64,000 bases of DNA. It comes from an uncultured bacterium (GTDB taxonomy: Bacteria; Bacteroidota; Bacteroidia; Bacteroidales; Bacteroidaceae). Location of the stretch: positions 1 through 64,000 of the forward strand of contig CAJMSQ010000010.1 in assembly GCA_905216095.1 (NCBI GenBank), given 5' to 3'. Numbering within the stretch: position 1 is the stretch's first letter; the number at the start of each line of letters is the position of its first letter. The translations under genes were made by a program, and so were the position numbers. Shown here in pieces: positions 1-63,909 of the stretch. The notes beneath the pieces are model-generated. The model ran no database searches. It was not told where the DNA came from and saw only the letters and a list, made by a program, of their open reading frames with translations.

Positions 1-171
1 ATGAGTCGATTTACATGCACATGTAGAAAATTTTAGAAGCATTCTGCGCAAAAATACATGCCTTTCATTTTGAAATGGAAGCAGCCCGCGCGCGAAAAGA
101 TGCTTTTTACGCGCTCGTATCCCTATTCTTTTACATTCATTAAGGTAACGGAAGTTAAAAATGTTAATGTC
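1..171 (+). repeat. Dispersed MITE-like element, copy E (5' end cut by window edge)
   Basis: This is the 3' part of the element seen complete at 8014-8290, 30897-31173 and 51313-51587. It holds the TACATG-CA-CATGTA palindrome near position 12, the internal hairpin CTTTCATTT/AAATGGAAG at about 61-80 and the terminal TGTTAATGTC at 162-171. The promoter and short hairpin RNA of the other copies would lie left of the window. The small reading frame through it is not conserved in the other copies. Between 172 and 308 I see only the rlmD promoter. Confidence 0.85.
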
Positions 172-8013: not shown

Positions 8014-8290
8014 GACTTTAACATATTTAACTTCCGTTACCTTAATAAATGTAAATGGAATAGGGCTGCGAGTGTGTAGAAGGCATCTTTTTGCGTGCGG
8101 ACTGCTTCCATTTCAACATAGAAGGCATGTATTTTTGCGCAGGCTGCTTCTAAATTTTTCTACATGTGCATGTAAACCGACCCGTAACGGGCTTATTTAT
8201 ACGAAAAAAGGCGGTCTGACACCGCCTCTCCCTTTATTGCTGATGCAAAGATACAACATTTTTCGGCCAAAAGCAAATAGTGTTAAAATT
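8014..8290 (-). repeat. Dispersed MITE-like element, copy C
   Basis: A 277-bp copy in minus orientation between bamD and the MaoC gene. Minus-strand order: end AATTTTAACA (8290-8281), promoter TTG (8276-8274), 20 bases, TATCTTTG (8253-8246), hairpin AGGCGGT/ACCGCCT with T-run (8227-8204), TACATG-CA-CATGTA palindrome, CTTC/GAAG-type hairpin, and end TGTTAAAGTC (8023-8014). The rest of the 7773-8478 gap holds the bamD promoter and a possible MaoC promoter. Open frames across it are not conserved between copies. Confidence 0.9.
8204..8241 (-). ncRNA. Predicted ~38-nt hairpin RNA of element copy C
   Basis: Transcription from TATCTTTG at 8253-8246 should start near 8241 and stop at the stem AGGCGGT-ctgac-ACCGCCT followed by six T. 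The product would be about 38 nt, mostly terminator hairpin. The start is estimated from usual spacing; no expression data are available. Confidence 0.4.
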
Positions 8291-30896: not shown

Positions 30897-31173
30897 GATT
30901 TTAACACAATTTGCTTTTCGGCGGAAAATGTTGTATCTTTGTGGTACGGAAAGTAGGGAAGGCGGTCGCGGACCGCCTTTTTTCGTGTAAATAAGTCCGT
31001 TATGGGTCGATTTACATGCACATGTAGAAAAATTTAGAAGCAGCCTGCGCAAAAATACATGCCTTCCGGTTTGAACCGGAAGCCTTCCGCGCGCAAAAAG
31101 ATGCCTTCCCAGAGTTCGTAAACCTATTTCATTTACATTTATTAGGATAACAGAGGTTAAATATGTTAAAGTC
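30897..31173 (+). repeat. Dispersed MITE-like element, copy A
   Basis: A 277-bp copy. Order: end GATTTTAACA (30897), promoter TTG (30911-30913), 20 bases, TATCTTTG (30934-30941), hairpin AAGGCGGTC/GACCGCCTT with six T (30959-30983), TACATG-CA-CATGTA palindrome (31013-31026), hairpin CTTCCGGTT/AACCGGAAG (about 31063-31082) and end TGTTAAAGTC (31164-31173). The two ends are near-inverted repeats (9 of 10). It lies between malQ (reading away) and the 3' end of the hexosaminidase gene. Its internal small frame is cut by an early stop, unlike copies B and E. Confidence 0.92.
30947..30983 (+). ncRNA. Predicted ~37-nt hairpin RNA of element copy A
   Basis: A consensus promoter at 30911-30941 should start transcription near 30947. 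A 9-bp stem (30959-30967 with 30971-30979) followed by six T would end it near 30983. The start position is estimated. Confidence 0.4.
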
Positions 31174-46099: not shown

Positions 46100-46354
46100 G
46101 ATTTTAACACTATTTGCTTTTGGCCGAAAAATGTATTATATTTGTATAGCAAAAATGAGAGGGACGGCCGAAACCGTCCCTTTTTCGTGTCCGTAAGCCC
46201 GTTTTTGGGAGAAACTGTCCCTATGACAGGAAAAACTACATGCCTTCCCGTTTCTCTTACATGCCATGTAGCGTTTCCCGGCCCGGCATGTAGGCGAAAT
46301 TACATGCCATGTACGTCGCGCCGAATGTGCACGAAAGTTAAAAATGTTAATGTC
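46100..46354 (+). repeat. Dispersed MITE-like element, divergent copy D
   Basis: A 255-bp copy. Ends GATTTTAACA (46100) and TGTTAATGTC (46345-46354). The promoter (TTG 46114-46116, 20 bases, TATATTTG 46137-46144) and the hairpin GGGACGG/CCGTCCC with five T (46161-46185) match the family. The central part differs: it has a CTGTC/GACAG hairpin and two perfect TACATG-C-CATGTA palindromes (46258-46270, 46301-46313). It ends 9 bases before the stop of the Dabb gene. Confidence 0.85.
46150..46185 (+). ncRNA. Predicted ~36-nt hairpin RNA of element copy D
   Basis: Start near 46150 from the promoter at 46114-46144; end at the stem 46161-46167/46174-46180 followed by five T. The stem carries A-T where copies A and C carry G-C, so pairing is kept. 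Confidence 0.4.
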
Positions 46355-46363
46355 GTACTGCCG

Positions 46364-46663
46364 CTAAACCTCGTAGTCCACGCAGCCGCGTGCGGCCACG
46401 TAGGGCTTTAGTGCCGTGGCCGCGGCCACGTGGTCGGGATGTACGGCGTAGATGCGCACGTCTTCGAGGCTGTCGAAGGTGCTGTCGAGGCAGATGTCCC
46501 ATTCTTCCGCCGGATTGATGTTCAGTCCGACGTGAATGGCCCGTATCTGCGGAATCACGGCCGGCAGCTGCTCTATGTCTTGCTTGAACTGCTGCATGGC
46601 TTGTCTGCGTCCGGCTGCGGGGAGTTCCCTTCTGAGGCGGAACATGACGGTGTGTCTGATCAT
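46364..46663 (-). CDS. Dabb-family (stress-responsive A/B barrel) protein
   Basis: This 99-residue protein begins IRHTVMFRLRREL and contains AIHVGLNINPAEEWDICLDSTF-type strands split by helices, followed by IYAVHPDHV; this is the Dabb dimeric alpha+beta barrel pattern. Proteins of this family are small cytoplasmic dimers of mostly unknown role. ATG 46663 is chosen. A possible -7 box TACTTTTG lies at 46713-46706 on the minus strand, and the MltF gene is divergent. Confidence 0.85.
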   Translation of the reverse strand: MIRHTVMFRLRRELPAAGRRQAMQQFKQDIEQLPAVIPQIRAIHVGLNINPAEEWDICLDSTFDSLEDVRIYAVHPDHVAAATALKPYVAARGCVDYEV

Positions 46664-51000: not shown

Positions 51001-51314
51001 TTCGCGGCGCACTGGAACGGCGTGGTGTCAGGGGTTGCGACGCCATCGGCATAGACACGGTGGAATGTTACCAGGGCAGCCAGCGCGATTACATTATTTT
51101 CAGCACCACCGTCAGCCGCCATTACCAGTTGGACATCCTTTCCAATACGCACGACATCGGAGGTGTGCCCATCGACCGCAAACTCAATGTCGCGATAACG
51201 CGGGCCCGCCTTCAGTTCCTGCTTGTCGGCCATGTCGGCCTGCTCTCCTGCAATCCCGTATATGCCGCATTCCTGTCGGCATGTGACGTCTTCGACCCGG
51301 CGTCTTCGCGGTGA
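48006..51314 (+). CDS. Dna2-like PD-(D/E)XK nuclease fused to SF1 helicase
   Basis: This 1102-residue protein joins an N-terminal region with a RecB-type nuclease (D328 in GRFDVLT, E339 and K341 in VELKSGK) to an SF1B helicase: Walker A GPPGTGKT at 678-685, AYTHRAVDEI (Ia), IVDEASQVLEP (II), GDHKQLPAVVL (III), QGSQRDYIIFSTTVSR (V) and LNVAITRAR (VI). The order matches eukaryotic Dna2 and bacterial Dna2-like proteins acting on DNA ends or flaps. I do not see a clear Cys-rich iron-sulphur signature. Its stop codon TGA is partly made by element copy B. It is adjacent to the MltF gene, with no obvious link. Confidence 0.88.
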   Translation: MTTALEAFSEIRDCLNSDAPLQVRYAGLYALLRRLCSERAESYHSEFSGPFSLLYAVCRKEKIELRDADRFRRNARLVLWGRQAATVSGFHEDAACLCAFVCALFRCPLPGGLPQMNSGRPEARPLPVERSAALRGIVTEVLPDGLKCRVAERELVVRLPGLVRTLAVAESGMTVNLLDVSETQEGATARMAVLDPDYLLDVSALTACVKPYGASPLNYLLDMLAPREVTVPILLGNAANGFMDDCMNGTPTFAEALRRNFGNDILGYACCTEDISSGYVERARRQFDNIRTAVSERFPSPEVGIWPGEVLLEPSFVCEKLGLRGRFDVLTTDHRRLVELKSGKAEGFGGRPLRPKPEHVLQMSLYKEILHYNLGIPRDAIFSYLFYSAYPVFFNERTSAQAISDVLELRNEIVALEADLRRGGFEAILPRLTPDALNLKKLDNRLYRDYLRPALDRLLAPLHRMSDTERAYFGVFLRFVEREKYLSKTGDNRPDSRRGFASTWLTDPLTKRMSGDILCDLRLRSCEGEDGIDTLVFDVPDHGDRFVPNFNVGEMVQLYERPTERDTVTGHRLVRGYIEELATGRLRLRLAYKQRNRSLFPDGTRYAVEHDASDAPFAQSLRGLYALMAAPEDRRALLLGMRPPATDRSVSLLGTYPASTAKVVLQAKQARDYFLLVGPPGTGKTSVALRAMVEEFLLMRQAGTAGGSLLLTAYTHRAVDEICGMLERLGADYLRIGMAQNCGEAYRPRLLSERTADCPTRTAARKLLSSVPVVVGTVTTLSAHQEMFNLCTFDAVIVDEASQVLEPQIVGLLSAARDGSCSIRKFIMIGDHKQLPAVVLQRPERTRVEDPLLRAIGLLDLRDSLFERLHRLQAGGEAEGIVAMLDRQGRMHTDICGFVSRTFYDGRLDVVGLPHQTGSLPFGHPVTPIERFVASTRMGVVNVVPEGPADNNKANAAEADMTAALVEAIVRLNDGEGDAFRPEERIGVIVPFRNQIGMIRGALERRGVRGCDAIGIDTVECYQGSQRDYIIFSTTVSRHYQLDILSNTHDIGGVPIDRKLNVAITRARLQFLLVGHVGLLSCNPVYAAFLSACDVFDPASSR

Positions 51315-51587
51315 TTTTAACACTTCTTGCTTTTCGTCTAAAAATGTTGTATCTTTGCAATACGGAAGTATGGAGGACGGTTGAAACCGTCCTTTTTTCG
51401 TGTAAATAAGCCTGTTATGGGACGATTTACATGTGCATGTGGAAAAAATTAGAAGTAGCCCGCGCAAAAATACATGCCTTCCGGTTTGAAATGGAAGCAG
51501 TCCGCGTGCAAAAAGATGCTCTTTACGCATTTGCAGCCCTATTCTTTTACATTTATTAAAGTAACGAAGGTTAAAAATGTTAAAGTC
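51313..51587 (+). repeat. Dispersed MITE-like element, copy B
   Basis: A 275-bp copy. Ends GATTTTAACA (51313) and TGTTAAAGTC (51578-51587). Promoter TTG 51327-51329, 20 bases, TATCTTTG 51350-51357. Hairpin AGGACGGT/ACCGTCCT with six T (51374-51398). Palindrome ACATGTGCATGT, then the CTTCC/GGAAG hairpin region. Its first two bases complete the TGA stop of the helicase gene. Between 51588 and 51708 I see nothing else. Confidence 0.92.
51363..51398 (+). ncRNA. Predicted ~36-nt hairpin RNA of element copy B
   Basis: Start near 51363 from the promoter at 51327-51357; the stem GGACGGT/ACCGTCC with a TGAA loop and six T gives the end near 51398. The stem has compensatory A-T for the G-C of copies A and C. 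Confidence 0.4.
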
Positions 51588-63671: not shown

Positions 63672-63768
63672 GTAATAAAAAAGAAAAAAACATCACGGAG
63701 AACGCTATGTTTTTCCGATTTTTTTTGCGCCGAAAAGCCTTCTCGTTTTCAGTGGGTTAGGGAAGGGG

Positions 63769-63829
63769 AAAACTAAGATAGGGATAGGATTCCCTATCAT
63801 AGGGATAGAAAAAACTAAGATAGGGATAG
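63769..63829. repeat. Direct repeats with AGATAGGGATAG and a small palindrome
   Basis: AAAACTAAGATAGGGATAG occurs at 63769-63787 and 63811-63829. Between them is CCCTAT-C-ATAGGG. A further AGATAGGGATAG lies at about 62628, on the other side of the AT-rich glycosyltransferase gene. The stretch 63619-63983 otherwise holds the minus-strand promoter, a GTGCCATGTA motif near 63840 and the sigma-54-type site. Confidence 0.8.
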
Positions 63830-63909
63830 TTTTTCCTATGTGCCATGTAATTTTCCGCAGATGTCGGCCCGCGTGTCCGAAACGCCTTGCCGGTATTTCC
63901 GTGTGCGGC

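Follow-up and report, generated by a model that had tools for sequence, protein, structure and literature searches.

Tandem sites of about 21–22 bp arranged on one face of the helix are known from the iterons of plasmid origins and from multi-site transposon ends, and Tn7-type ends carry multiple transposase sites of about 22 bp. Where repeats are dispersed in bacterial genomes, the usual interpretation is that of selfish remnants or of simple palindromes. For the REP/BIME repeats, the account in PMC2817692 mentions a proposed chromosome-organising role and the binding of gyrase by BIME-2. The BrickBuilt MITE of Porphyromonas gingivalis is, according to the features described in PMC4596501, intergenic and non-coding, with inverted ends, a layout of leader, tandem units and tail, promoter activity, and terminators predicted nearby in 10 of 19 cases. 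The family presented here shares with BrickBuilt its occurrence in the Bacteroidales, the intergenic and non-coding nature, inverted ends (imperfect ones here) and the layout. The literature search found no description of a promoter–hairpin–array family, a weak result considering that subscription papers were thinly covered.

The window, that is the whole 64-kb (64,000 nt) stretch of DNA analysed here, contains five copies of this family, and the coordinates and lengths given in the first-pass annotation were confirmed: copy A (1–171, plus strand, a 171-nt partial), copy B (8014–8290, minus strand, 277 nt), copy C (30897–31173, plus strand, 277 nt), the shorter copy D (46100–46354, plus strand, 255 nt) and copy E (51313–51587, plus strand, 275 nt). 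Both orientations are thus represented, as had been claimed. The window edge removes the promoter and hairpin of copy A, and the array units (12–116, plus strand, from the rows of units) and tail (154–171) are left; this partial copy is 82–88% identical to B, C and E (blastn E about 1e-43 to 1e-82), which share 82–85% identity amongst themselves over their full length. Copy D has only the left ~105 nt (75–80%) and the right 18–24 nt in common with the other copies, and its interior consists of its own TACATGCC/GGCATGTA units, with TACATGCC spaced 21 nt. A left-module covariance model for which only Prevotella sp. MGM2 (genome G001) served as training data gave exactly four matches in the window (E 2e-8 to 8e-7): copy B (8194–8281, minus strand, E 2e-8), copy C (30906–30993, E 7.6e-7), copy D (46109–46195, E 7.2e-7) and copy E (51322–51408, E 1.8e-7). 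With filters off, the pooled model R3, which was partly trained on window copies, found no further match in the window at E < 0.3.

The description of a dispersed, intergenic, non-coding family with short imperfect inverted ends also holds. In copies C and E, the ends GATTTTAACA and TGTTAAAGTC match as inverted repeats at 9 of 10 positions, while copies A and D end in TGTTAATGTC and copy B starts with AATTTTAACA (8 of 10). Copy E overlaps only the stop codon of a gene ending at 51314 and is otherwise intergenic, and copy D sits between a glycogen synthase gene and a Dabb-domain gene ending at 46364. Mechanically called ORFs do overlap the copies; among eight ORFs scanned in or beside them, only the Dabb gene had a Pfam family above cut-off, in agreement with the claim that the copies code for no transposase. 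The scan of ten window proteins near the copies revealed no replication or transposase gene.

The annotation had regarded the family as MITE-like or REP-like, a reading that left out the parts that matter most, namely a promoter, a hairpin with a T-run and a 21-bp array. Each complete copy carries these in this order and is closed by a TTAAA-rich tail. The putative promoter of copy C (30910–30941, plus strand) comprises TTTG at 30910–30913 (–33 type) and TATCTTTG at 30934–30941 (–7 type), and is of the Bacteroides –33/–7 type (TTTG ... TAtcTTTG), as this motif is given in PMC7366714. A G+C-rich hairpin and T-run follow no more than about 15 bases from the expected start; in copy C they correspond to AGGCGGTCGCGGACCGCCT and the T-run at 30960–30983 (plus strand), terminator-like on the basis of the sequence and the covariation in the family. 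The hairpin of copy B, AGGCGGTGTCAGACCGCCT, was located from the alignment and rows at 8209–8227 (minus strand), that of copy D at 46160–46181 (plus strand; a terminator scan lists only the minus-strand reading), and that of copy E at 51372–51395 (plus strand), followed by a T-run and terminator-like in a simple scan.

Downstream of the hairpin, written out in rows of units, the arrays comprise five 21-bp units in copies C (31013–31117, plus strand, with a peak at lag 21), B (8070–8174, minus strand) and E (51428–51532, plus strand). In copies A, B, C and E the five rows begin with TACATG, TTAGAAG, ATACATGC, ATGGAAGC and AAAGATGC, the fourth unit of copy C starting with CCGGAAGC. The array of copy D spans 46216–46320 (plus strand), with TACATGCC units from 46237 that keep the same beat of 21, which equals two helical turns. 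The tail follows the pattern GTTAAA(A/T)ATGTTAA(A/T)GTC; it is GTTAAATATGTTAAAGTC in copy C (31156–31173, plus strand), with a similar tail in other species, and is found at 8014–8031 (minus strand) in copy B, 46337–46354 in copy D and 51570–51587 in copy E. At 63758–63839 the window has a further 21-bp-spaced array, which lacks the promoter–hairpin module. It consists of TAGGGATAG units, together with CCCTA in inverted orientation, and lies upstream of a promoter-like TACCTTTG of the minus strand. This may represent either a bare array of the family's type or an ordinary group of regulator sites.

Genome-wide analyses were carried out in relatives of the window genome. Searched as DNA, copy E was matched in 4 of the 16 genomes behind related loci and, at E 1e-6, in 3 of the 58 genomes of G001's genus, nearly always over the left 64 bases or less and once over the last 30. 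In G001 a distance of about 265 nt separates the left end from the right end downstream of it, and the intervening letters differ. Model R2, the left-module model that had matched the four complete window copies and was built from 22 G001 copies with no window sequence in training, gave matches in 15 of the 58 genomes at E ≤ 0.01 (best 76 candidates per genome scored). The profile search of other Bacteroidales that the first-pass annotation had suggested places the layout in 10 of the 58 genomes (G001, G003, G004, G005, G010, G023, G033, G034, G051 and G053), with 3 to at least 76 matches each, and in G213 outside the genus. The least clear carrier is G034, for which two copies were read, one with doubtful units. 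G029, G039 and G058, with one weak R2 match each, were left outside the carrier count, and the matches in G042 and G045 were inspected and are not the element. The wider model R3 matched 11 of 399 genomes drawn from the taxonomic family at E ≤ 1e-5 (best 11 candidates per genome scored), seven of which were accepted (G001, G003, G010, G023, G053, G213 and G177); the single copy in G177 may come from a mis-binned contig, and the matches in G045, G102, G347 and G370 were by eye not the element and are outside the counts. G213 consists of one contig of 3.27 Mb and has 100 matches at E ≤ 0.05, 17 of which were read, and the five carriers searched most fully have 18 to 100 model matches. The promoter and the terminator-like hairpin are found in the four complete window copies as well as in the copies read from carriers. 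Five G001 contigs (C246, C225, C296, C308 and C147) end inside a copy. Since draft contigs end in this manner, copies are probably points at which short-read assemblies break, so that too few of them are counted there.

To judge from the alignments, the hairpin is kept through compensatory changes. In 22 G001 copies, 92.3% of the hairpin cells are paired, with two-sided changes in 12 of 13 pairs (0 of 500 shuffles). For 81 matches from the window and ten genomes, a set in which a few weak or reverse-strand matches were left, the corresponding value is 95.5%, with 310 two-sided cells, in an alignment that was fitted to the structure. At eight pairs of corresponding sites in G033 and G004, the fold is present in all 16 copies (z –3.1 or lower against letter shuffles); amongst the hairpin pairs 80 are the same, 9 changed on one side, 5 on both sides, 13 of 107 broken and 6 gapped. 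The sequences of both stem and loop differ between species.

The array behaves similarly, with a period of 21–22 bp across species and unit sequences which vary from species to species and in some cases inside a single genome: CCAAGTATT in G001, CCGATGTTG in G005, TTTGCCTTCC in G023, GTCGCCCAAG in G053, ATTACTGAG or CTCGGTGC in G051, and several in G010. Units read directly occur in either orientation. In all nine species sets (2–32 copies each), 21 is the strongest or second strongest of 62 lags, and in larger sets it is first in G033 and second in G004; some other multiples of three are also among the top lags (27 in G001, 24 and 18 in G005, and 60 and 69 in the window), each below lag 21. 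The top lags of G213 include 44, 22 and 66, corresponding to a period of 22. In control DNA 450–600 nt upstream, lag 21 ranks 7th (G033) and 2nd (G004), with a fraction of matches of 0.28 or less in the controls compared with 0.36–0.53 in the arrays; coding DNA can also peak at 21, 42 and 63, as these are multiples of three. Unit-like words number 139 within elements and 10 outside in G001, and 66 and 11 in G023, using a matrix trained on the elements. The mean fold z of the array is –0.8 in the window and –1.1 in both G001 and G051, and –2.8 to –4.9 in G005, G010, G023, G033 and G053 (14 copies each were used for G001 and G005). As the arrays fold about equally well on the opposite strand, DNA sites fit better than an RNA, and a structured-RNA array was rejected. 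A search with one window unit pattern found no viral contigs.

The placement of 56 copies (window, G001 and G005) was examined on the basis of crude gene calling. Copies overlapped by short ORFs occur in this set, and 52 copies have a called gene on both sides, with all four classes of neighbour orientation present (17, 14, 12 and 9). Spacing was studied on contigs chosen because matches lay on them. The G001 copies are spaced more evenly than chance: 54 gaps have a mean of 8.7 kb, a minimum of 2.6 kb and a coefficient of variation (CV) of 0.43, whereas random choice among intergenic gaps gives 0.83, 0.78 and 0.71 under three definitions of such gaps (0 of 2000 each). The even spacing was first noticed in contig C243, where seven successive gaps measure 7.6–9.1 kb; without this contig the CV is 0.46 (0/2000), with only matches of at least 150 nt it is 0.50 (0/2000), and with both restrictions 0.55 (9/2000). 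The effect is weaker in G023, with 13 gaps, a mean of 24.9 kb and a CV of 0.55 (19–25 of 2000), and becomes weak when only matches of at least 150 nt are considered (CV 0.61, 208/2000). The mean spacing hence differs by species (8.7 vs 25 kb). In G213, 2 gaps are under 5 kb where 14 are expected (0/5000), the null being uniform rather than intergenic. The whole-genome CV is 1.11, which is not low and includes a 320-kb empty tract, possibly with missed copies; for the first 2.52 Mb it is 0.73 (4/5000). The G+C content of two samples of the tract is 0.51 at its edge and 0.375 inside. Exclusion from the terminus is known for Noc/SlmA. With dnaA of G213 at 34 kb, the tract (2.52–2.84 Mb) is not opposite the origin, and exclusion of this type was rejected.

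The mobility suggested by the first-pass annotation stands for part of the data. Two G001 copies separated by 5 kb share 95.4% identity over 285 nt and have exact ends and unrelated flanks, and the best pairs in G005 are 89–92% identical over about 150–500 nt, also with unrelated flanks, which indicates that the element spreads. The next G001 pair is at 85% and the following ones at 77–81%, and the higher identities in G005 point to a spread that is more recent there, not ancient. The G005 copies (L133–L152) form two groups which share promoter, hairpin and array and differ in their outer ends, one of ~500 nt with ATGCA-rich ends and one of ~360 nt whose left edge, ATAGTTAACG, is sharp in all eight aligned copies of that group, as if the core had been captured twice. 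The inverted ends are imperfect in G001 (TTTTAACA/TGTTAA) and differ in other species such as G005. A test for target-site duplications in 49 G001 copies found none: at no offset and length tried (2–9 nt) did the matches exceed the re-paired null by 4 or more and by a factor of over 2.2.

Site stability in G033 and G004, which are close (flank blocks 72–99% identical, 20 of 24 at ≥86%), counts against a plain MITE. From 22 matches in G033, 20 sites were taken, 12 of which are comparable with G004 DNA while 8 lie outside the G004 DNA covered. A model-detected copy is present at the matching G004 place for 10 of the 12, including L328, L337, L338 and L340, which aligned on one side only or have extra or displaced DNA. 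In the remaining two cases, nothing but the array is left in the G004 partner of L331, and there is a rearrangement at L334. The L331/L361 pair was rejected as an empty site, since a copy is there with promoter and hairpin gone and the array remaining, and there is no clean empty site among the 12. At L328, L334 and L340, a jump in the alignment of the flanks coincides with the element or lies close to it, making the copies look like recombination points. The eight site pairs have an identity of 0.60–0.90 (matched bases over 240), and in seven of them (the exception being L344) the best match of the G033 copy is its own counterpart. A ninth pair (L341 1353/L361 9736) was dropped as it resembles the leader of a rimP-like gene. 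In several genomes this gene, recognised by eye, has a leader with a promoter immediately followed by a hairpin and T-run (L269 and L267 near 1501–1592; L317 near 1501–1588; L341 1353–1437; L361 9736–9823), which is possibly an attenuator and a false match of the model. Between this leader and an element copy, a segment of about 0.86 kb is present in G033 and absent in G004 (L341 1474–2391 vs L361 9857–9910).

At greater distances the sites differ. The window glycogen synthase shares 73% identity with the enzyme of Prevotella sp. MGM2 (L001) and 56–71% with those of the other 79 loci kept from 287 relatives. Model R3 found matches on these 80 loci in L001 (E 7e-12) and L009 (E 2e-4), plus three weaker ones; the gap upstream of the gene is occupied in the window (copy D), in L001 in the opposite orientation and in L009 in the same one. 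At the gene end in G001 that corresponds to the site of copy C, a counterpart is lacking. For copy E there is none directly at the matching G001 place, the nearest being 1.7 kb away, and G001 has a copy on the other side of the PPDK-like gene. G005 has no profile match just upstream of BamD, where the window has copy B. Conservation at the same place, which the annotation had named as evidence against mobility, is therefore seen mostly between close relatives and not between distant ones.

These data raise the question of what maintains the layout. As a tentative preference, we regard the family as a cis-acting chromosomal element which spread as a small mobile repeat and is now kept at most of its sites by selection, with a putative function in punctuation or insulation. 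RNA polymerase would start at the housekeeping-type promoter and stop at the hairpin immediately following it, giving an RNA of ~40 nt, and the array just downstream, with units in either orientation on one helix face, would allow cooperative protein binding. The combination of the two parts could serve as an insulator or as topological punctuation, similar to BIMEs, with gyrase- or IHF-type binding, and the even spacing would reflect selection on the distance between neighbouring marks. The patchy occurrence, the 89–92% pairs of G005, the differing mean spacing, the weaker spacing signal for matches of at least 150 nt, the whole-genome CV of G213 and the broken hairpin pairs at G033/G004 sites count against this reading. 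The search found no protein partner for the array, and the variation of units within G010 and G051 is awkward for a single sequence-specific protein. That the marks form a chromosome-wide ruler, on which promoters firing into a terminator beside a two-turn array set the borders of topological or transcriptional domains while the array letters drift and the 21-bp beat and hairpin are kept, is rather unlikely, although the conserved layout hints at a chromosome-wide job. An alternative that we consider almost as probable is a MITE, a non-autonomous transposon family, in which the array would serve as the site bound by a transposase whose gene lies elsewhere. Target immunity would space the copies, and promoter and hairpin would be carried along or guard against read-through. 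The near-identical G001 pair, the 89–92% pairs of G005, the imperfect inverted ends, the two G005 groups with one core and the few close neighbours all agree with this, and a transposon with target immunity explains the spread, the spacing and the array about as well as a maintained element does. The lack of target duplications by test, the kept copies at comparable G033/G004 sites, and the transposase, of which none was seen (nor was a gene-bearing copy noticed among the profile matches), weigh against it, none decisively. A dead MITE should moreover lose its hairpin and beat, which the diverged copies keep with compensation in the hairpin, and a freshly active one should be near-identical everywhere, which the G001 copies are not and the G005 copies are closer to being. 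AAA_22 proteins were considered as a marker for a target-immunity ATPase and rejected as uninformative, as they occur in all 22 genomes tested.

The promoter, the terminator-like hairpin and its conserved structure would equally suit a multicopy small-RNA gene family, in which ~40-nt hairpin RNAs from many loci titrate or guide a partner and the array is a regulatory region. However, stem and loop differ between species, leaving no kept target-pairing region to be seen, and the strict period is in the array, downstream of the hairpin, so we judge this improbable. We give even less credence to a terminator or insulator cassette copied around for the benefit of neighbouring genes only, with no role at the scale of the chromosome. 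The examined copies are indeed intergenic, sometimes right after a gene reading into the copy, and the hairpin has a T-run, but the orientation to neighbours is mixed, the element brings its own promoter, and the G001 spacing is more even than a random choice among intergenic gaps. A maintained element with a mobile past, most BIME-like in kind, is on this analysis narrowly favoured; the family may have been transposing in one period and maintained in another. What is conserved here is the layout, the pairing of the hairpin and the helical phasing rather than the sequence itself, the opposite of what an ordinary homology search targets, and elements of this type would escape a search based only on sequence. 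Should the spacing be functional, it would provide a countable set of candidate borders between domains in the chromosome of a gut member of the Bacteroidales; should it result from target immunity, the family would be a self-spacing transposon with a two-turn binding array.

The annotation did not recognise the family, and comparison with known families likewise found no described one that it belongs to. In Rfam 15, only a tRNA in the window scores above gathering, the best weak match in copy E reaching 17.7 bits against 40, and a described RNA family was rejected accordingly; so was a phage or plasmid element, copy E having no phage or plasmid match. Retrotransposition was dismissed by inference, as an RNA copy would lose a promoter lying upstream of the transcript. 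The MITE-like designation is in line with the imperfect inverted ends of the window and G001 and with the spread, and fails to account for the missing target duplications, the compensated hairpin, the even G001 spacing and the kept sites. As for BrickBuilt, the features described in PMC4596501 include 23-nt repeats without spacer in 19 copies and ends of GAGACCTT.../...AGGTCTC, unlike those of the window, and do not include a conserved promoter–hairpin leader or even spacing; the window ends and 21-nt units do not correspond to its TIR GAGACCTTYGCA/TGAAAGGTCTC and 23-nt units, and membership was rejected. The tests for a REP/REPIN family spoke against membership. The RAYT transposase (Y1_Tnp, PF01797) was found in 28 of the 58 genomes, including the carriers G003, G004, G005, G023 and G051, and was not found in the five others, G001, G010, G033, G034 and G053, which argues against a RAYT/REPIN system, with the absence uncertain as several genomes are fragmented drafts or MAGs. 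Compared by eye, the units contain no GTAG/CGTC-tagged palindrome of 20–40 bp. Plasmid-origin iterons and multi-site transposon ends differ from the present family in that it is dispersed over chromosomes, with 18 to 100 model matches in the five carriers searched most fully. In the description of PMC2817692, REP, BIME and REPIN sequences resemble it in their many intergenic copies, units in either orientation and species-specific sequence; the present family differs from them in having its own promoter, a 21-bp period and units that are not GTAG-tagged palindromes. Relative to a BIME, the favoured maintained element would add a promoter–terminator unit of its own and the two-turn beat.
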